Of a stretch of DNA of 40,414 nt, positions 7,030 to 39,150 are shown piece after piece. Both the position numbers and the translations under genes were made by a program. The notes beneath the pieces were generated by a model, which saw nothing but the letters and a program-made list of their open reading frames with translations, was not told the origin of the DNA and made no database searches. The first letter of the stretch is position 1. Each line of letters begins with the position of its first letter. Origin of the DNA: Planctomycetia bacterium. GTDB taxonomy: Bacteria; Planctomycetota; Planctomycetia; Pirellulales; Thermoguttaceae. The DNA lies in contig JAPLNP010000435.1 in assembly GCA_026401055.1 (NCBI GenBank), forward strand, positions 1 through 40,414. Reading direction: 5' to 3'.

Positions 7030-8094
7030 TTACGATTCGCCCAGGTAGTTGCCATAGGTGATGATCAACGTTGCCACGACGATCACGGCCATGCCGACAT
7101 GCAACACGCGGCGGGGGCGCGTGCCGACGCCCTCCCACTCTCGGAACAGCCAGCCGTAGACGTTGCTGAAAAGAATCAGCATGGCCATGTGCAGGGCCCA
7201 GCTCGTGAAGCCGTATTGCGTGCCCATGTAGTTGTGGCCCATGCCGTAGAAGAAGAACTGGAAATACCAGAACGCGCCGCTCGCGAGCGCCATGAGGTAG
7301 TAGAAGGCAAGCGTGCCGGCGCCCTGCCGCGGCAGGTGGAGAAACTCACCGCCGGTCCGGTTTCGCGTGATCAGCCACGCGCACCAAAGGAAGTTCGTGA
7401 TGAAGGCCCCGCCGTGGGAAACCGGATAGATGGCGTTCATCTTCAACAGGTCGCTGGCTCCGGCGGCCCGGGCCGCGTCGGCGATGGGCTCGCCCGCCAG
7501 AAGCGCGAAGTTGAACACGGCCGAAAGCGCGCCGGCGGTGATGGCCAACGGAACGCCGATCCGGAAGGAATACCGCGACGGCGAACCGCCGCCGGCCCGT
7601 TCCCGGAGAACGCCGGCCAATCCGCAAATCGCGATGCCGCCGAGCGAAATGAGGATGCCGGCGAGCACGATCTGGCCGGGCGTGCCGGAGAACTTCTCGC
7701 CGATGGTCCACACGAACCCCGCGTTGGGATCCCAGATGAGCGGAAACAGGGTCCCGAGCCCCGCCGAGATCCCGATGGCGATCGCGTAGTTCAACGAGAA
7801 TCCGATATAGCGAATACCCAGGCCGAATGTCAGGCCCCCGACGCCGTAGATCACGCCCAGAGCGAGCGATCGCAACATTGCGTCCTTCGGGCAGGCCGCG
7901 AGCACGCCGAGGTAATCGGGAATGGTCAGAAACGCGCCGGCAATCGGCAGGATCAACCACGCAAACGACGCGGTGGTGACCCAGTAGATCTCCCAGGACC
8001 AGAGCCTCGTCTGCTTCTGCGGCGTGTAGCAACTGGCCGCCGAGAACGCGCCGACGCCGTGCAGGGCGACTCCGAGAAAAGGATTGGCTGCCAT
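7030..8094 (-). CDS. rhaT: L-rhamnose/H+ symporter, RhaT-like
   Basis: This 354-residue inner-membrane transporter has about ten hydrophobic helices, matching the length and drug/metabolite-transporter-like architecture of RhaT. Recognisable blocks include a long N-terminal GVALHGVGAFSAASCYTP, then YGVGGLTFGLGIRYIGFSLN and, near the end, YFQFFFYGMGHNYMG. The reading frame is open 85 codons further upstream, but that extension is Arg-rich and not membrane-like. The ATG at 8094 has a GAGGTGA about 7 nt upstream and gives the right protein length. The adjacent rhaM supports rhamnose as substrate, although planctomycete RhaT-like proteins may carry other deoxysugars or sugar monomers from degraded polysaccharides. 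Confidence 0.9.
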   Translation of the reverse strand: MAANPFLGVALHGVGAFSAASCYTPQKQTRLWSWEIYWVTTASFAWLILPIAGAFLTIPDYLGVLAACPKDAMLRSLALGVIYGVGGLTFGLGIRYIGFSLNYAIAIGISAGLGTLFPLIWDPNAGFVWTIGEKFSGTPGQIVLAGILISLGGIAICGLAGVLRERAGGGSPSRYSFRIGVPLAITAGALSAVFNFALLAGEPIADAARAAGASDLLKMNAIYPVSHGGAFITNFLWCAWLITRNRTGGEFLHLPRQGAGTLAFYYLMALASGAFWYFQFFFYGMGHNYMGTQYGFTSWALHMAMLILFSNVYGWLFREWEGVGTRPRRVLHVGMAVIVVATLIITYGNYLGES

Positions 8095-8366
8095 GCTCCG
8101 CGTCACCTCGTGTGCCAGTTTCACGTCTTCTTTACCAGAACCATCGCGGCGGGTCAATGTGCGGCGGTCGGCCGATCCGGACCCCCCGGAATAGTCCGTG
8201 GGGAAAAGGTGTTTTGGGCGAAATCGGCAGTGGCGAGGCTTGAAATGCCCCCTTCGGCGAGTCACAATAGTGGGGGTAAATGGAGGGAGGGCCAGTCTGC
8301 CCGGCCCGTCGCGGGAAAAGTCAGCCAAGCTCGGCATTCTTGTCACCACCCGGAGAAACCGACCCC

Positions 8367-10106
8367 ATGAAACGCCTCATCTGCCATCTCGTGTTGTTTA
8401 CGCTCCTTGTCGCCTGGGGCTCTGTCCCGTCGGTCGCGGCAGAGGCCAAGCCCGAGCAGCCGACCAAGACTGAGAAGGCCGCCAAGGACGAGAAGGCCGC
8501 CAAGGACGAGAAGGCTTCCAAGAGCGAGAAGCCGGCCAAGGGCGATGAGAAATCGAAAACCAAGGAATCCGCCAAGGCCAAGGAGTCGCCCAAGGCGGAA
8601 AAATCGCCCAAGACCGAAGCGGCGAAGCCCGCCGAGGGCGCCGAATCCGCCGGTGCGGCGAAGCACGAGGTGAAGAAGGGGCCCTTCTCCATCGAGGTCG
8701 AACTCAAGGGGGTCTTCGAGGCCCGGAAGATGACCGACGTCGCCATCCGGCCCGAACAGTGGACTTCTTTCACGGTGCTCAAGGCGGTCGAACACGGCAG
8801 CCGGGTGAAGCGGGGCGATCTGCTGGTGGCGGTCGAGACGGACAAGATCGACCAGGCCATCGCCGACTTGAAGACGAAGCAGCGGTTGTCGGACCTCGAT
8901 ATCGAGAGGGCCAAGCAGCAGTTGGCCGCGCTCGAGAAGCTCACGCCGATGGACCTCGTGGCAGCCGAGCGGAGCCGCCGGATCGCCAAAGAGGACCTCG
9001 CCCAGATGCTTGAGGTCGAGCTTCCCACCGCCCGGAAAACCGTCGATTTCTCGCTGCAAATGTCGGCCGACAACCTCGCCTACGAGAAAGAGGAGCTTAG
9101 CCAGCTCGATAAGATGTACAAAGCGGACGATCTCACGGAGGAGACCGAGGAGATCGTCCTCCGCCGCGCGCGGGACTCCGTCCGCCGCGCCGAGTTCTTC
9201 CACACGTTGGCCAAGCTGCGTCACGACGAGGCGTTGAAGTTCGGGCTACCCCGCGAGGAAGAGGGCGCCAAGGAGTCGACCCAGCGGACGACGCTGGCCG
9301 CTGAGGGGGCGAAGATCATTCTGCCCCTGACGCTCAAGAAGCAGCAACTGGACCTGGAGAAGATGAAGATCGAACGGACGCGGGACGACGAGACGCTCAA
9401 GGAGCTTCTGGCCGACCGGGAGTCGATGGTCATCAAGGCGCCCGTCGACGGCGTGGTCTACTGCGGCAGATTCGTCGACGGCGAGTGGAACGCCACGTCA
9501 TCCGAACAGTTGCAGCGCGGCGCGAGCCTGCCGGCGGGCAAGGTGTTCATGACGATCGTCCAGCCGCGGCCGATGGCGGTCCGGGCCGAGACGCCCGAAA
9601 AAGACCTGCAATACGTCCACCCCGGCCTGAAGGGTTCCGCCCGGCCGACCGGCTATCCGGACGTCAAGCTCTCGGCCATCGTCGCGGACGTGGCCGCCGT
9701 GCCCTCGGCCACCAACACGTTCGACACCAAGATCACCGTCGGCGACGAGGGCGATTCGTCGCTGATGCCGGGCATGACGTGTACGGTGAAGATGATCGGC
9801 TACCAGAAGAAGGACGCCTTGACGGTGCCCCCGTCGGCCTTGAAGACCGACCCGCTGGACGACGAGAAGCACTTCGTCCGGCTGGTCGACAAGAAGGGCG
9901 AGGCCAAGGAGCATCCGGTGACCGTGGGCAAGCGGACCGACAAGCTAGTCGAGATCCTCAAGGGTCTGTCCGAAGGCGACCAGGTGCTGCGCGAATACCC
10001 CAAGGACGACGACAAGAAGGCCCCCAAGGACGACGATAAGAAGTCCCCCAAGCATGACGACAAGAAAGCCCCGAAGGACGACGACAAGAAAGCCGAGAAG
10101 AAGTGA
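8367..10106 (+). CDS. HlyD-like periplasmic adaptor (membrane-fusion) protein with Lys-rich flanks
   Basis: A 579-residue exported protein. Residues 1-25 form a signal peptide (MKRLICHLVLFTLLVAWG...VAA). A Lys/Glu/Ala-rich low-complexity stretch (about 26-95) follows, with repeats such as AAKDEK. The adaptor core runs to about residue 545: a barrel-sandwich/biotinyl-lipoyl half (VLKAVEHGSRVKRGDLLVAV), a long alpha-hairpin rich in coiled coil (about 170-350), the second lipoyl half (MVIKAPVDGVVYCGRF) and a beta-barrel/MP-proximal domain ending in GLSEGDQVL. The C-terminus has repeats of the form KAPKDDDKK. Such adaptors normally join an ABC or RND pump to an outer-membrane channel, but no pump gene is nearby; the next gene is a squalene-cyclase-repeat protein 6 nt away. 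The start was chosen for its signal peptide and an upstream GGAG. Confidence 0.85.
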   Translation: MKRLICHLVLFTLLVAWGSVPSVAAEAKPEQPTKTEKAAKDEKAAKDEKASKSEKPAKGDEKSKTKESAKAKESPKAEKSPKTEAAKPAEGAESAGAAKHEVKKGPFSIEVELKGVFEARKMTDVAIRPEQWTSFTVLKAVEHGSRVKRGDLLVAVETDKIDQAIADLKTKQRLSDLDIERAKQQLAALEKLTPMDLVAAERSRRIAKEDLAQMLEVELPTARKTVDFSLQMSADNLAYEKEELSQLDKMYKADDLTEETEEIVLRRARDSVRRAEFFHTLAKLRHDEALKFGLPREEEGAKESTQRTTLAAEGAKIILPLTLKKQQLDLEKMKIERTRDDETLKELLADRESMVIKAPVDGVVYCGRFVDGEWNATSSEQLQRGASLPAGKVFMTIVQPRPMAVRAETPEKDLQYVHPGLKGSARPTGYPDVKLSAIVADVAAVPSATNTFDTKITVGDEGDSSLMPGMTCTVKMIGYQKKDALTVPPSALKTDPLDDEKHFVRLVDKKGEAKEHPVTVGKRTDKLVEILKGLSEGDQVLREYPKDDDKKAPKDDDKKSPKHDDKKAPKDDDKKAEKK

Positions 10107-30523: not shown

Positions 30524-31564
30524 TTACCCCATCGCCTCGCTCGTGCGGCGGACGGATTCGACCAGGGCCTTCATGTTCTCCGCAGGCACGTCGCGAGGGT
30601 TCATCTCGCCGGTGTTGAAGAGGTAGCCGCCGTCGGCGTACCCGATCTGGACGATTCGTCGGGCTTCGTCGGCGACTTGGTCGGGCGTGCCCCGCATCAG
30701 GACCTCGATCGGGTCGAGGTTCCCGCTGAAACAGTTCTTGCCCGTCAGCGATTGCCGCACGGCGGCGAGGTCGGCGTCCGGACCGCAGTTGATGATGTCC
30801 GCGCCCAACTCGGCCTCGGCGAGCAGGTACTTGACCGAAATCTCGCTGTTGTGCAGGTGGACCAGCCCGCCGTGCTCGTGGATCCGCTCGACGAGTCTCC
30901 TGCACGAAGGGAAGGCGAACCGCCGGTATTGATCGACCGAGAGCATTTTGGAGAAGGCGTTGCAGTCGCCCACCCAGATGGCATGGGCGCCGGCGTCGAG
31001 TTGGGCCTTGGCGTGGCGTGATTGAAGCTCGACGAAGAAATCACATGCGTCGGCCAGCAGACCGGGATCGGTCGCGGTGAGCATCATCGTCTCTTGCAGC
31101 CCGAAGAGCAGCCCGACGGAACTATAGGGCGCCGCCAGGCTGCCCTCGACCAGCACCGTGTCGCCGAAGCGTTCGCGGACGAGGCGGATCGCCTTGAGCT
31201 TCTCCGGCATGCGACCGTCGGCGGCGGGGTCGGGCATGGGGAGGTTGTCGAGTGTCTCGCGCGTGGCCGGCAGGTAGGTCTTCGTCGCGCGGAGGATGTT
31301 CTCACGGCCCTGGGTTTCGACGCCCAGCGGCTCGAACTCGAAGCAATCGTCCACCTGCAGCCATGCCCAATCGTAGTCGAACTCCTCGATGGCGGCGATC
31401 CACACTTCGGCCATCTTCTCGCCGTCCTGGCACACCTCCTCGTAGGTGTACTTGCCGTGCCAGCGGACGTCGAACTCTTCGCTACAGGCGAACACCGGCA
31501 ACCGGCGAGGCTTCTCCAACCGAATCGCCGCAAGGATGTCGTCAATCACGCCGTCGTAGGCCAT
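30524..31564 (-). CDS. Uroporphyrinogen decarboxylase (URO-D) family protein
   Basis: A 346-residue TIM-barrel protein of the URO-D superfamily, which includes heme-pathway HemE and many corrinoid-dependent methyltransferases. Recognisable blocks are DWAWLQVDDCFEFEPLG, VLVEGSLAAPYSSVGLLFG (residues about 137-155), AIWVGDCNAFSKMLS, HEHGGLVHLHNSE and, near the end, CFSGNLDPIEVLMRGTPDQV and GGYLFNTGEMNP. The last resembles the GN-DP and G-Ihg-P stretches of the family. The N-terminus lacks the HemE PVWfMRQAGR motif, so it is not a heme enzyme; a methyltransferase-like role is more likely. It lies 69 bp downstream of the 590-aa unknown gene on the same strand, and the two may work together. Confidence 0.88.
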   Translation of the reverse strand: MAYDGVIDDILAAIRLEKPRRLPVFACSEEFDVRWHGKYTYEEVCQDGEKMAEVWIAAIEEFDYDWAWLQVDDCFEFEPLGVETQGRENILRATKTYLPATRETLDNLPMPDPAADGRMPEKLKAIRLVRERFGDTVLVEGSLAAPYSSVGLLFGLQETMMLTATDPGLLADACDFFVELQSRHAKAQLDAGAHAIWVGDCNAFSKMLSVDQYRRFAFPSCRRLVERIHEHGGLVHLHNSEISVKYLLAEAELGADIINCGPDADLAAVRQSLTGKNCFSGNLDPIEVLMRGTPDQVADEARRIVQIGYADGGYLFNTGEMNPRDVPAENMKALVESVRRTSEAMG

Positions 31565-31633: not shown

Positions 31634-33406
31634 TCATGCCGGCGCGGGGAGGAACACCGACTCCAGGGCGCGCTGGTGGACATCGAGTTCCTCGACGAAC
31701 GCGGTTCGAGCCTCCGGCGGAAGGTGCTCGGCGAACTGGTGGTAATACGCGATGCCTTCGACCATCGAGGCGTGAAACCGCCGCGCGTGGACGCAGCCGT
31801 CGGGCGAGGCGTCGCCCGCGAGTTTGCCGGCCAGCCAGGCAAAATACAGCCGCAGTTCCCGGAGAAACAGGTGCGGGCGCCCGGGCGCCAGCGGCAGCGA
31901 CCGGCGGCCATAGATGTGGTCGACCATTTCCCGGAGCGACGCGATCTTCGAGAAGTCGGCGATGCCGGGGCCGGGACAGACCGCGGGCGTGGCGTCCGGG
32001 TCGATTCCGTTCTTACGAGTGGCTCCGCCGGCAAGATCGTGGCAGATGCACGACTTCACGAGCACCTTTTCGCGCTCGCCGTCGGGACAATCGTCGCCGA
32101 GAGACTGCAATTTCAGCCGTTGATACTCGCGCGCGGCGACGCAGATCGGCGTGGACGTAAACTCCTTGTTGAACAGCCTGCTGTAGCCCTTGCGGCAGAT
32201 TGCCCCGGGCCGGCCTTCCGCGATCCGCCGCCGGCGAGCCTCCTCGCTCGCGGAGTTGCGCAGATTCCAGAACGGGTGCATGAACGGCGAACTCTCGCTG
32301 AGGAACACGTCGTCGCCGGTGGCCGCCGCCAACTTCGCCAGTTGCTCGTCGTCGACGTTGGTCACCTCGGGCACGAGGAGGAACGGAGTGGCCCAGCCCG
32401 TGCCGTCGAGTTCGTAATAGGCCAGCAGGAACCGATTTTCCTCGGCCGTGCCGATGCCGCCCTGGGCGGTGACGCGGGTTATGGCGGGCGCTCGGGTGGC
32501 GTCGCGGCCCGAGTCGGCCAGCCCCTCGAGGTAAAGCGTCAACAGTTCGGCGCGAAGCGAGTCGCGGTTTTGCTTGAACTCTTCGAGAATCGGCCCCATC
32601 AACTGTCCGCCGGTCGGGAACGAATGGCCGCCACAGTTCAATCCCGACTCGATCCGGAACTCGGACACCCACAGGCCGCGTTTGGCCAGATACTTGCCCT
32701 GGACGACCGCGGACCGGTAGTCGCTGACCTTGAGGATAATGTGCTTTCGCGGCTCGCCGTCGGCACCGGGGAAAAAATCGTCGAACTTCGCCATGTAGCC
32801 GTACAGACGGGGGTTCATGCCGGCCGAAAAGACGACCGACGATCCCCAACGGCTGTTGGCGAAACCGCGAAGCGCCGCCGAGGCGTCGGACACTTCGACC
32901 GGGGCCACGACGCCCGGCTCGAACTCGCGGCGGTCCGCCGCCGACATGATGTTGACGTCGATCCGCCCCGGCGCCACCAGTCGCCGGAGCCGCTGTTGCA
33001 GTTCCGCCTTGTCGTCACCGGACGCGGCGAGCATCTGGTCATACAGACGCCGCGGCGAGGAGCACTCGGGCAGGAGTTCGAAGTACTTGGTGATCTCGCT
33101 GCCGGCTTCAAACGGCGCGGCCCGCAGATCCTCGACCTGGCGGTGGACCACTCGGCCGAGCAGATCGAGGTAGGCCGTGATCCGCAGGGCCCTTGCGTCC
33201 TTTTCGGCGTTGGGAATCGGCTCGTAGGGCTCGCCCTCCCGTTCGCTGTGGAACTTCCGCATTTGCTCGATCAGGACGTCGTCGACCATGGAAATCACGG
33301 ACGAGATGCCGTACTTCGCCACCCGCAACGGCGTGTCGATCGTGAACCCCGTTCCCATGACGGGAATGTGGAACGTGTGCGAGCCCGGCGCCGTGGCCTC
33401 GTGCAT
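31634..33406 (-). CDS. Unknown 590-aa protein, possible FMN-type TIM barrel
   Basis: I cannot name this family. The protein has no membrane segments. Near its N-terminus FHIPVMGTGFTIDTPLRVAKYG resembles the opening of nitronate-monooxygenase-like barrels, and later ITRVTAQGGIGTAEENRFLL resembles the GGIG phosphate/FMN-binding strand of such barrels. Other striking blocks are RGLWVSEFRIESGLNCGGHS and, towards the end, several Cys residues (AICRKGYSRL, TPICVAA, KSCICHDL, AVCPGPG) that could bind metal. The start at 33406 was chosen because GAGGAA lies about 8 nt upstream; an in-frame ATG at 33436 is possible. The URO-D gene follows after 69 bp, so an operon is likely. Long, compact and rich in conserved-looking motifs, it should be a real gene. 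Confidence 0.8.
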   Translation of the reverse strand: MHEATAPGSHTFHIPVMGTGFTIDTPLRVAKYGISSVISMVDDVLIEQMRKFHSEREGEPYEPIPNAEKDARALRITAYLDLLGRVVHRQVEDLRAAPFEAGSEITKYFELLPECSSPRRLYDQMLAASGDDKAELQQRLRRLVAPGRIDVNIMSAADRREFEPGVVAPVEVSDASAALRGFANSRWGSSVVFSAGMNPRLYGYMAKFDDFFPGADGEPRKHIILKVSDYRSAVVQGKYLAKRGLWVSEFRIESGLNCGGHSFPTGGQLMGPILEEFKQNRDSLRAELLTLYLEGLADSGRDATRAPAITRVTAQGGIGTAEENRFLLAYYELDGTGWATPFLLVPEVTNVDDEQLAKLAAATGDDVFLSESSPFMHPFWNLRNSASEEARRRRIAEGRPGAICRKGYSRLFNKEFTSTPICVAAREYQRLKLQSLGDDCPDGEREKVLVKSCICHDLAGGATRKNGIDPDATPAVCPGPGIADFSKIASLREMVDHIYGRRSLPLAPGRPHLFLRELRLYFAWLAGKLAGDASPDGCVHARRFHASMVEGIAYYHQFAEHLPPEARTAFVEELDVHQRALESVFLPAPA

Positions 33407-34123
33407 CCAAGCTTCCTCGTGAGTATGGTCGTTCATTCGGCAAAGGCGCTGCTGGAAGCCGGTCGGCCGGCGCGTGACGTTCCCCCGGGCTGGTCCGCGC
33501 GGGAGTGGGGCCCAACCGCGCGACTCTCGGATGAGTTGAAATGACACACGCTGCGAGTGCCACGGGCACCCCGGATGCGTGCTCGGCTACATTGGCGCAA
33601 ACCTCCCCTCGATGGGGGTTTCACCGCGCCAACAGGCACGGCACGGATGAACGACGCCTGCCGAGGGCGATCCGGCGGTGGGCAAACGGTCAGTGATGTT
33701 CAGATCCAGTTCGATGGACAGTCGCCAGCGCGGAGTTTATTCTCCGCCCTATTGTTCCGACCCTTCGATCCGTGTCAAGCTCGACACGGGGCATTGGCTC
33801 GATATGGGCCGAGTATTACGGTAGTTTTACACAATGGGGCCGCCTCTCCCACGTCGACAAGCCATGGAAGAGGGAAATCCACGCCCGAGGAAGGGAACGT
33901 CCCTAACCGGCTGAATGCGACGCAGGCGTAAGCCGAACATCAACCGGTCGCCATACGCACAAGAGATGGGTATGCAGCCCCCGGTCGTAACCCCCACCCA
34001 GGGGAGGGTATCAGGATGCCCATTTCCTCATCAAATGATCTACCGCCGAATCCCGGAATTGGCTAAAAATGGCCCAGCGAGCACGGACGGAACGTCCGCC
34101 CCCCGGTCAAGGAGGATCCCGCG
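33407..34123. other. 717-bp intergenic region between divergent genes
   Basis: This gap lies between the divergent 590-aa unknown gene and kdsB. I see no convincing coding gene. It holds three small hairpins within 33730-33904 and a kdsB ribosome binding site (AAGGAGG) at its end. A weak TTGACA occurs on the minus strand near 33780 without a good -10 box. Confidence 0.5.
33730..33904. other. Cluster of three small hairpins, possible structured RNA
   Basis: Perfect stems occur at 33730-33747 (gcggag/ctccgc, loop tttatt), 33770-33789 (ccgtgtc/gacacgg, loop aagctc) and 33892-33904 (aggga/tccct, loop acg). They fit no small RNA or riboswitch that I recognise. Short stems can occur by chance in GC-rich DNA. 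Confidence 0.25.
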
Positions 34124-37088: not shown

Positions 37089-38285
37089 TCACTTGGCCAG
37101 CCACGCGGCGACGCCTTGCTCGACGCTCTTCATCTCGCCGAGGAACTCGCCGGTGATCTCCTCGGCCGGCAGAAAGATGGTCTTCGAGCCTGGGATTGGC
37201 TCGGGCGGAACGTGGACGGTGCCCTTCAGCGGCTTGTAGCTGAAGTGGACCTCCGGGATGTCGGAGTCGAGCGGATAGTGCATCGGCGCCCAGCCGCCGG
37301 TGGGAAGCTGGTTGTCCAGGAACGTGAAGACGGCCACGCGCTCCGCGACGCGGTACGCCGTCTCGATCAGTTCCTCGCTGCCCAGGCCGTGCCCGACCAG
37401 CACTCGCAACAGTTCGCCCGCGCCCCAGGCGACCTTGCACTTCGACGGCCACAGATAGGTGTCCAGCGCCGCAGTGCTCTCGAAGTCGAGCAACTCGATC
37501 GCGGCGTCGAGATACGGCCGGGCTCGCTTCTCATCATAGTTCCAGCGGGTCCGCATTGCCTCGTAGAGGACGACGAGGTAGGCCATTGTGGTGCCGAGTT
37601 GCCAGCCCTCCTGTTGTGGATGGTAGCGATCGACGACTTTGCCGATCCGCTCGCCCGGCCCGACGTCGGTCACGAGCCGGCCGTCGGGGGTCACCTGGCT
37701 GTAGAGCCGGCCCTCGGCGGCGTGGGGGCGATTCAGTTCGACCCAGTGTCGCATCCAATCGCCGGCCGAAACGGCCTGCTCGCGCATGTCCAGGGCAACC
37801 ATCAAGTGGCCGAAGAACGACGTGTTCAGCGTGCCGAGGGTCGGCTGCTCTTCGACCCGCTTGGGATCGTCGCCGATGTAGTGGAAGCACCCGCCGGACG
37901 GCTTGTGCCAGTACTGGAGGATTCGATCCAGCACGACGGGCTTGCGGATGATCGGGTGGCCGATCCACGCGGCCACCTTGCCGAACGTCATTGGGCGGTA
38001 CACCCGTTGGAGATCCTTGTACTCGGGCGGCTCGCTCGGGAAGTAGAAGTCGCCGTTGGGCCGCAACGCCTCCCGTTCGGTCCAGTCCAGCAGCCGGGCG
38101 ATCAGAGCGTGGTCGACGCCCGAGGCGTACATTCCCCACGTGGCCTTGTAGACGTAGCTGACGTTCTGCTCGCGGGCGATGGGTCCATAGGGCGCGACGC
38201 GGCCGGTCAGGAACGCGGCGCCTTGGGCCAGCGAAACGCGGATGGCACCCAACAGGTGCGCGGGGTCGGTGATTCGCCAGGTCAT
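37089..38285 (-). CDS. Unknown 398-aa protein with repeat-like helical sequence
   Basis: I do not recognise this family. The protein has no membrane helices or clear signal. Its content of Trp, Tyr and Gly and blocks such as VSYVYKATWGMYASGVDHALI, QYWHKPSGGCFHY, PQQEGWQLGTTMAYLVVLYEA and DNQLPTGGWAPMHYPL resemble helical-toroid proteins (glycosidase or cyclase-like alpha/alpha barrels), but no catalytic motif can be assigned. The ATG at 38285 has GGAG 7 nt upstream; the open frame continues 15 codons further without support. The Tat-exported sugar isomerase-like gene lies 25 bp upstream on the same strand, so the two are probably an operon concerned with sugar or lipid metabolism. The protein itself appears cytoplasmic. 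Confidence 0.75.
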   Translation of the reverse strand: MTWRITDPAHLLGAIRVSLAQGAAFLTGRVAPYGPIAREQNVSYVYKATWGMYASGVDHALIARLLDWTEREALRPNGDFYFPSEPPEYKDLQRVYRPMTFGKVAAWIGHPIIRKPVVLDRILQYWHKPSGGCFHYIGDDPKRVEEQPTLGTLNTSFFGHLMVALDMREQAVSAGDWMRHWVELNRPHAAEGRLYSQVTPDGRLVTDVGPGERIGKVVDRYHPQQEGWQLGTTMAYLVVLYEAMRTRWNYDEKRARPYLDAAIELLDFESTAALDTYLWPSKCKVAWGAGELLRVLVGHGLGSEELIETAYRVAERVAVFTFLDNQLPTGGWAPMHYPLDSDIPEVHFSYKPLKGTVHVPPEPIPGSKTIFLPAEEITGEFLGEMKSVEQGVAAWLAK

Positions 38286-38310
38286 GTCGGTCTCCAAAGG
38301 AAGAGTTTCT

Positions 38311-39150
38311 CTACAGCGTCGCCAGAACACCCTTGACGTAGCCGATCGATTCGGACAGGCCCGGCATCGGGTCGTCGGCGTCCTTCTCGTATTCGAACGA
38401 GACGATCCGCGAGTAGTTGGTCTCGACCAGGGCCCTGAGAAACGCGGGTATGTCGATCGCGCCGCGTCCGATCTCGAGCGTTTCGCCTTTCGCGCTGGCC
38501 TCGGAAACGTCCTTGACGTGGACGTCCAATAGGCGGTCGGCGTAGAGCTTCGCGTCGGCCACCGGGTCGGCGCCGATCCGCAACGTGTGGCCGATGTCCA
38601 TGCACAGGCCGATCCGCGGATCGAGATCCTTGATCCGATCGTAGGCGGACTTGGGCGTGGGATAAACCTTGTCGCCCGGACCGTGATTGTGGATCGCCAC
38701 GGCGATGTCGTACTGCTTCACCTTCTTGTCCACCAGCGGCAACACGTCCGGATGCGGCGAGCCGACAATCACCCGCATCCCGGCGGCCTTCGCGTAGTCG
38801 AACGCCTGGTCCACTTCAGCCGGCTTGCTCATGCCGACCACGCCGCAGCCGTACAGATCGAGCCCGGCGGCTCGGCACTTGGCGGCCGCCTCGGCGCACT
38901 GCTCGGCCGTGGCATCCATCGGCAGATGGAACGATTTCAGGCAAATGTGTTTCAATCCAACCCGGCAGGTCATCTTGATCGTCTCGTCCAGCGAGAACTT
39001 GCGAAGCGTGTACGACGCGAGACCGAGTTCGAACGGGATCTTCGTTTTCGCCTTTTCGCTTGCCCCGGTTTGCGTAAGGGGACTTCCGGCGAAGGTCACG
39101 GCCGCGGCGCCGGCGAGACCGAGGAATCGTCGTCTGGTGTGCTTCCGCAT
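38311..39150 (-). CDS. Tat-exported sugar phosphate isomerase/epimerase-like protein
   Basis: A 279-residue protein with a twin-arginine signal: RRRFLGLAGAAAVTFAG at residues 7-23. The mature domain is an AP-endonuclease-2/xylose-isomerase-like TIM barrel. Typical blocks are LGLASYTLRKFSLDETIKM, HICLKSFHLPMD, VAIHNHGPGDKVYPTPKSA, LCMDIGHTLRIGADPVAD and LDVHVKDVSEA, with metal-binding acidic and His residues in the expected strands, and a C-terminal IVSFEYEKDADDPMPGL. The family includes myo-inositol and hexulose isomerases and epimerases, and the substrate here is unknown. AAGGGAA lies 7 nt before the ATG at 39150. The downstream unknown gene probably shares the transcript. Many planctomycete genomes carry dozens of such Tat-exported proteins. 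Confidence 0.9.
   Translation of the reverse strand: MRKHTRRRFLGLAGAAAVTFAGSPLTQTGASEKAKTKIPFELGLASYTLRKFSLDETIKMTCRVGLKHICLKSFHLPMDATAEQCAEAAAKCRAAGLDLYGCGVVGMSKPAEVDQAFDYAKAAGMRVIVGSPHPDVLPLVDKKVKQYDIAVAIHNHGPGDKVYPTPKSAYDRIKDLDPRIGLCMDIGHTLRIGADPVADAKLYADRLLDVHVKDVSEASAKGETLEIGRGAIDIPAFLRALVETNYSRIVSFEYEKDADDPMPGLSESIGYVKGVLATL

Follow-up and report, generated by a model that had tools for sequence, protein, structure and literature searches.

The 590-aa protein encoded on the minus strand of the planctomycete contig analyzed here (the whole stretch of 40,414 nt is called the window) is probably a divergent FabX-type enzyme that introduces the double bond in unsaturated fatty-acid synthesis and that has spread horizontally, displacing FabX. 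We used as the reference for this comparison FabX of Helicobacter pylori (HP0773; PDB 7e1q and 9lt8), an acyl-ACP dehydrogenase/isomerase. As described in passages of PMC8626469, FabX makes unsaturated membrane fats in Helicobacter, belongs to the nitronate monooxygenase (NMO) family, carries both FMN and a [4Fe-4S] cluster, and in H. pylori requires O2, and its authors were aware in 2021 of no other Fe-S enzyme of fatty-acid synthesis.

A conserved and unnamed family

The ORF (31634 to 33406, minus strand) is intact, encoding 590 aa followed by a stop codon, and the sequence upstream offers a ribosome-binding-like site, GAGGAAG, 5 nt before the ATG (33412 to 33418, minus strand). Relatives were found at 34 loci in other genomes, mostly 43-60% identical to the window's protein across nearly its full length. 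With relatives of this kind in many phyla, conservation of the ORF by chance is excluded, and the earlier note was right to treat it as a real gene. The record titles of the 34 loci name Pirellulales, Phycisphaerae, and other Planctomycetota; Desulfobacterales, Desulfobulbaceae, and Desulfocapsa; and Eisenbacteria, Zixiibacteriota, Kiritimatiellae, LCP-89, Actinomycetes, Bacteroidetes, Spirochaetes, Omnitrophota, Calditrichota, Latescibacterota, Acidobacteria, and Pseudomonadota. These labels, mostly those of metagenome-assembled genomes (MAGs), were taken as written; they place the family under about a dozen phylum labels, with Hyunsoonleella jejuensis DSM 21035 as the only named strain, and they suggest that many carriers are anaerobes. 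The family is encoded by 17 of 392 genomes of Planctomycetota, the window's own genome counted, and, in the class that contains the Desulfobulbaceae, by 11 of 115, with identities again mostly of 43-60%. It is single-copy in 16 of the 18 genomes checked, and two spirochaete genomes (contigs L020, L018, and L030) have an adjacent second copy, which on L030 is split over two frames. For the family alignment and tree, duplicates were removed (L036, a duplicate of L009, and L131-L133, duplicates of L025, L013, and L012), and relatives covering fewer than 480 query residues were left out of the 52-row set used to score individual residues.

The impression that the protein fits no family that can be named held up, as neither Pfam nor NCBIfam yielded a match to it at E 1. 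This includes the Pfam NMO family, PF03060, which is also absent from the 15 Pfam families matched at E 1 by 33 aligned members. The weak Pfam and NCBIfam matches that these members did give (CDK5RAP3, DUF6178, ketol-acid reductoisomerase, and others, the best at E 0.002) were read as chance, as were the matches to ribosomal L29/L35 and apolipoprotein in PDB sequence searches with the single protein and with the profile. In the open-licence literature on FabX, UfaA, FabM/FabN, and Desulfobulbus-type fatty acids, the family was not recognizable from titles and the starts of abstracts. Elsewhere in the window, two further long ORFs (37089-38330, minus strand, and 7099-8370, plus strand) are without a Pfam match at 1e-5, and an 856-aa N6 DNA methylase-type protein (PF02384; 26252-28822, minus strand) is possibly a restriction or defence gene.

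The predicted fold is closest to FabX

We generated a predicted structure for the protein with AlphaFold2 from 33 sequences (pLDDT 84.6, pTM 0.87) and compared it to solved structures. The top solved structure in a Foldseek search was H. pylori FabX (E 5.6e-10), and VIA-align likewise ranked FabX (7e1q) best, with Z 25.4, rmsd 3.2, and 333 residues aligned at 18% identity, against Z scores of 20-21 for FabK and 17-20 for nitronate monooxygenases. This alignment covers residues 5-501 of the model and 12-363 of FabX and takes in 333 of 366 FabX residues, and must therefore include most of the FabX cluster subdomain (267-363).

Profile-profile comparison pointed in the same direction, giving a probability of 95.2 (E 2.8e-8) for FabX and 94.7 (E 6.3e-8) for pooled NMO/FabK, so that the two are tied by profile alone. 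IMPDH, DHOD, and DUS all fell below a probability of 1, PfaD reached 0.57 with a profile of two rows that amount to essentially one sequence, and the global mode of hhalign aligned nothing useful. The earlier note had likened the first segment of the protein and its AQGGIG strand to FMN-binding TIM barrels such as nitronate monooxygenases and had proposed structure prediction and profile searches as checks; both favor that likeness, the predicted fold being an NMO-like TIM barrel (Z 17-25 across FabX, PfaD, FabK, and NMO, with profile probabilities of 94.7-95.2). On the model and the alignments, the family belongs to the NMO superfamily as a divergent branch without a name, and the window's gene would encode an FMN-type TIM barrel followed by a FabX-like cysteine subdomain.

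The family and FabX have in common the barrel, several FMN-contact residues, a catalytic GGH, the serine that partners its histidine, and four cysteines in a C-terminal subdomain. The differences are nevertheless considerable. At 590 aa versus 363 aa, the protein has a helical insertion that FabX lacks, predicted between the first barrel strands from the secondary structure of the model (residues 71-143; 32978 to 33196, minus strand), as well as C-terminal helices at residues 513-582; it carries an extra invariant cysteine, C258, just before the GGH, and it is without a Pfam NMO match. Its 18% identity to FabX lies below the criterion of more than 50% sequence identity that was applied to FabX homologues (PMC8626469).

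Two other groups are built on the same barrel. PfaD and the trans-AT enoyl reductases (4z9r, 6lkc, and 4cw5) share an NMO-type barrel with extra helices and are similar in size (best Z 21.9), and we know of no four-cysteine cluster in them. FabK and the nitronate monooxygenases share the barrel and the GGH motif (Z 17-21) but are without the cysteine subdomain, whose place in FabK is taken by an NAD(P)H-binding motif. Since FabK and PfaD have the same fold, the protein could in principle be a FabX-fold enoyl-thioester reductase of the FabK kind, in which electrons would pass from NADH through a NuoE/NuoF-like partner to the Fe-S cluster and FMN and would saturate enoyl-ACP or enoyl-CoA. We consider this improbable, and the cysteine subdomain argues against it, being what FabX has in the position of FabK's NAD(P)H-binding motif (PMC8626469).

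Invariant active-site residues and cysteines

All 52 relatives in the residue set share N152, E253, G259-H261, G316-G317, S373, C404, C422, C453, C455, and G479, and most of these fall at sites with assigned roles in FabX. In the portion of PMC8626469 that concerns them, the FabX FMN contacts include N99, E175, G220-221, Q240, T243, and F339-T340-G341, among others; the catalytic histidine, H182, has S273 as its partner; and C300, C304, C308, and C320 bind the [4Fe-4S] cluster.

In the profile alignment, N152 of the window's protein (in VNIM; 32951 to 32953, minus strand, as for all positions in this section) pairs with the FMN-contacting N99, and G259-G260-H261 (32624 to 32632) pairs with the FabX GGH that ends in H182. 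G316-G317 of the AQGGIG strand (32456 to 32461) pairs with G220-G221, which contact FMN, and S373 of an SSP motif (32288 to 32290) pairs with S273, the hydrogen-bond partner of the catalytic histidine. The match at E253 is less exact, as it lies 8 residues before the histidine and E175 of FabX lies 7 before, one residue out of register. Farther along, G479 of the GP motif (31970 to 31972) pairs with the FMN contact G341 in a relaxed alignment of low confidence.

A [4Fe-4S] subdomain is predicted at residues ~385-500 (31907 to 32254), going by its position after the barrel and by the span of the FabX alignment. Its candidate cluster ligands are C404 (32195 to 32197), C422 (32141 to 32143), C453 (32048 to 32050), and C455 (32042 to 32044), of which C404 and C453 pair, with low confidence in the relaxed alignment, with the first and last cluster cysteines of FabX. 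The motifs AQGGIG, CRKGY, KSCICHDL, and AVCPGPG that were first picked out in the sequence are all present in the protein, and the suggestion that a C-terminal cysteine cluster could hold metal is strengthened by the invariance of C404, C453, and C455 and by the precedent of FabX. The set of invariant cysteines is not quite the one first proposed: C422 lies outside the quoted motifs, and C477, the cysteine of AVC, is threonine in 7 of the 52 relatives. The spacing also differs, CX17CX30CXC in the window's protein versus CX3CX3CX11C in FabX, and for this reason the protein was not filed as FabX itself.

Exclusion with FabX in one bacterial class

One carrier of the family, the Desulfobulbaceae MAG G405, also has a true FabX (P0003), whose best PDB match is FabX with all four cysteines aligned. 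Using this protein as the query at E 1e-20 against the 115 genomes of its class, we found FabX in 104, a few of these matches being fragments at contig ends. The 590-aa gene is present in 9 of the 11 FabX-less genomes versus 2 of the 104 FabX-bearing ones (Fisher 4e-10, uncorrected for kinship). Both genes are kept in G405 and G459, and neither is found in G410 and G506. Among the FabX-less genomes, G426 is essentially one 3.98-Mb contig, so that the absence of FabX there is not an assembly gap.

To place these events, a tree of rpoB was made for 100 of the 115 genomes, including all 13 that carry the 590-aa gene or lack FabX. The 15 omitted genomes had no match (6) or an rpoB in pieces or cut (9), while G506 was retained with a partial rpoB. 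On this tree, the 590-aa gene was gained five times and FabX was lost five times, with three gains and losses on the same branches, namely those leading to a clade of six genomes that we informally label Desulfocapsa-like after the record titles of L025, L012, and L013, to G472 and G479, and to G491. When five losses were drawn at random, at least three shared branches arose in 25 of 200,000 draws weighted by branch length and in 13 of 200,000 uniform draws. An independent-pairs test gave three opposite pairs, none the same, and two without difference (p 0.25), and with only five pairs this test could not reach 0.05. As a separate observation, the rpoB matches of the Desulfocapsa-like clade and its sisters exceed the remaining full-length ones of the class (4059-4068 nt) by ~21-33 nt, at 4092 nt in G498, G490, G426, G394, G481, and G461 and 4089 nt in G422 and G473.

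That there are just three coincident branches, and a p of 0.25, leaves some room for the protein being an FMN/Fe-S oxidoreductase of another substrate (acyl-CoA, a cofactor, or C1 chemistry), with the exclusion arising by coincidence from the small number of events or from a niche held in common. We regard this as unlikely, though somewhat less so than the reductase, given a simulated coincidence of about 1e-4, a closest structure that is FabX, and a further FabX-less carrier lineage, G393, that lies outside the 115-genome sample.

Occupied and empty FabX sites

The genomic site of FabX is itself informative. In all nine FabX-bearing loci that show both genes, FabX adjoins pcnB (L277-L280, L282-L284, L286, and L287); the other flank is hisS-aspS in L280, L282, L283, L286, and L287 and HAD-nudix in other FabX-bearing relatives. 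FabX is in place in both double carriers as well (L298 and L299). In contrast, the site is empty in all nine of the FabX-less carriers in which it could be read, most of its flanks being preserved, and no FabX remnant was detected in these nine gaps at E 1.

For instance, the six FabX-less Desulfocapsa-like genomes have pcnB-hisS-aspS with no FabX between (L012, L273-L276, and L296). In five of the six, the 590-aa gene stands just past aspS and a small gene, which is DUF1456 where scanned; the contig of the sixth, L296, ends earlier. G491, G472, and G393 retain pcnB-bioB-bioF on one side and rpsA and nudix of the other, with FabX missing, and the HAD gene of the site is kept in G491 and G393 and was not found in G472. 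The site could not be read in G410, G506, and G479, as pcnB was not found in them at 1e-30.

The NMO-family search of G393 returned no full-length NMO protein. The pcnB of G393 falls outside the Desulfocapsa-like clade, on a long branch, whereas its copy of the 590-aa gene groups with the copies of that clade. This discordance and the case of G405 suggest that the 590-aa gene has spread horizontally.

Proposed reaction and its setting

If the protein is indeed of FabX type, FMN would be seated in the TIM barrel, and H261 of the GGH would deprotonate an acyl thioester at C2, the substrate being most likely an acyl-ACP of about ten carbons, with FMN accepting the hydride. A [4Fe-4S] cluster on C404, C422, C453, and C455 would store or relay the electrons, and the trans-2 product would be isomerized within the pocket to cis-3-enoyl-ACP, which would then be elongated to unsaturated fatty acids. 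The binding of FMN and [4Fe-4S], the acyl-ACP substrate, and the cis-3-enoyl-ACP product are all inferred. In anaerobes, the electron acceptor would presumably be something other than O2. The O2 requirement of H. pylori FabX speaks against the assignment, given that many carriers are anaerobes to judge by their titles.

The gene would have been gained by horizontal transfer in several lineages in which FabX was then lost, the gain presumably coming first, and gain together with loss in several lineages would mean that the 590-aa protein can replace FabX. Such repeated replacement could explain membrane fluidity in some oxygen-poor bacteria.

A precedent for this job being done without O2 by an NMO-family enzyme is NGO1024 (UfaA) of Neisseria gonorrhoeae. 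Parts of PMC11300592 describe NGO1024 as a FabX relative required for anaerobic unsaturated fatty-acid synthesis, with the electron acceptor unknown; at ~36% identity, it sits within the ordinary FabX family.

A broader proposal, which we put forward tentatively and with less conviction than the enzymatic assignment, is that the family is a second class of FMN/[4Fe-4S] enzyme for unsaturated fatty acids, found in many mostly anaerobic phyla, working without O2 by transferring electrons via the cluster to an acceptor protein, which in one lineage might be a NuoE/NuoF module, and spreading horizontally while displacing FabX. How unsaturated membrane lipids arise in bacteria that have no FabA, FabM, or desaturases is a long-standing and incompletely answered question, as the abstract of PMC2700279 sets out for Clostridia. 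An unnamed second FabX-like class, if real, would be a candidate enzyme for such bacteria, and the destination of the electrons of FabX-type enzymes without oxygen could then be studied in an anaerobic context.

Other routes to unsaturated fatty acids

FabA did not exceed its cut-off in any of 46 genomes searched (44 carriers plus G410 and G506) and did so in 2 of 14 control genomes. Sub-cut-off FabA matches, present in 43 of the 46, were taken as FabZ-type or synthase domains. G410, with its 2.77-Mb contig, and G506 are without a FabX match at 1e-20, a match to the 590-aa gene, or a FabA over the cut-off. An NMO-family search of 28 carriers led to nine strong-match loci that were read, of which only that of G405 has the FabX cysteine motif, and to a separate PfaD protein (L082) that G171 encodes besides its 590-aa family gene.

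The window's own genome, which is 87% complete, gave no FabX-like match at 1e-20, no fatty-acid desaturase match, and no FabA over the cut-off. The two other sampled members of the taxonomic family of this genome have a desaturase-family gene and are without the 590-aa gene. Across Planctomycetota, FabX/NMO-like proteins occur in 0 of 17 carriers versus 30 of 375 other genomes (p 0.63, not significant), a difference in the direction of exclusion but with no power. The 30 loci gave 31 relatives, 10 of which have the FabX-type cysteine motif. A fatty-acid desaturase family gene is present in 7 of 17 planctomycete carriers versus 254 of 375 others (p 0.03). We considered desaturase absence as a companion signature of the gene in this phylum and set it aside as weak; five of the 17 carriers share one genus code. 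The seven desaturase-bearing carriers speak against the 590-aa protein being strictly the sole route to unsaturated fatty acids.

Genomic neighbors

In the window, the 590-aa gene is followed on its own strand, after 69 nt, by a gene for a URO-D/MtaA-like protein (30524 to 31564, minus strand; Pfam E 1.4e-54). It scores well below the cut-off for HemE (TIGR01464, 71 versus 302.95 bits) and below that for MtaA/CmuA (TIGR01463, 119.2 versus 235.4 bits). The closeness of the two genes speaks for the idea in the earlier note that, as a likely operon, they could form a new redox or methyl-transfer pathway. The coupling did not survive a check of linkage, as none of 49 other loci has a URO-D gene next to the family member; 40 of the 49 extend at least 1 kb beyond it downstream, and two of the loci bear a URO-D gene on the opposite strand more than 2 kb off. 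L036-L048 and L050 were skipped in this count, being represented by longer stretches from their genomes or by the same contig. The URO-D-type gene is probably not part of the function, joint action of the two proteins is very improbable and already largely refuted, and the evidence points to fatty-acid metabolism in place of a shared pathway.

Once overlapping frames are excluded, each neighbor family is confined to 5 or fewer of the 49 loci, the largest raw neighbor clusters being mostly shadow frames of the 590-aa gene itself, and no fatty-acid synthesis genes were seen among the neighbors. An oxidoreductase acting on another substrate would draw some support from individual loci, such as those with the order gene-NrtR-NadA (L019) or gene-NadA-FAD enzyme, the last NadB-like (L024), the lone latescibacterotal locus in which the gene stands between an MTHFR/homocysteine methyltransferase gene and ThyX, followed by a pterin enzyme (L034), and the two with a PAPS reductase beside the gene (L017 and L031); the lack of a recurrent neighbor counts against it. 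The reductase finds support in an LCP-89 MAG (L014:1264-4927), where a NuoE-like and a NuoF-like gene closely flank the 590-aa gene and a NuoG-like gene follows downstream, but this setting occurs at one locus, whereas the pattern observed across genomes is exclusion with FabX.

We continue to favor a FabX-type function. The single-locus neighbors are suggestive of partners in redox reactions or of a role in the handling of oxygen. In two MAGs of sulfur bacteria, the gene is directly followed by a hemerythrin (L004:2845-3285) or, at the copy in G472, by a rubrerythrin (L269:5473-6078), and a link with oxygen or peroxide is possible at these loci.
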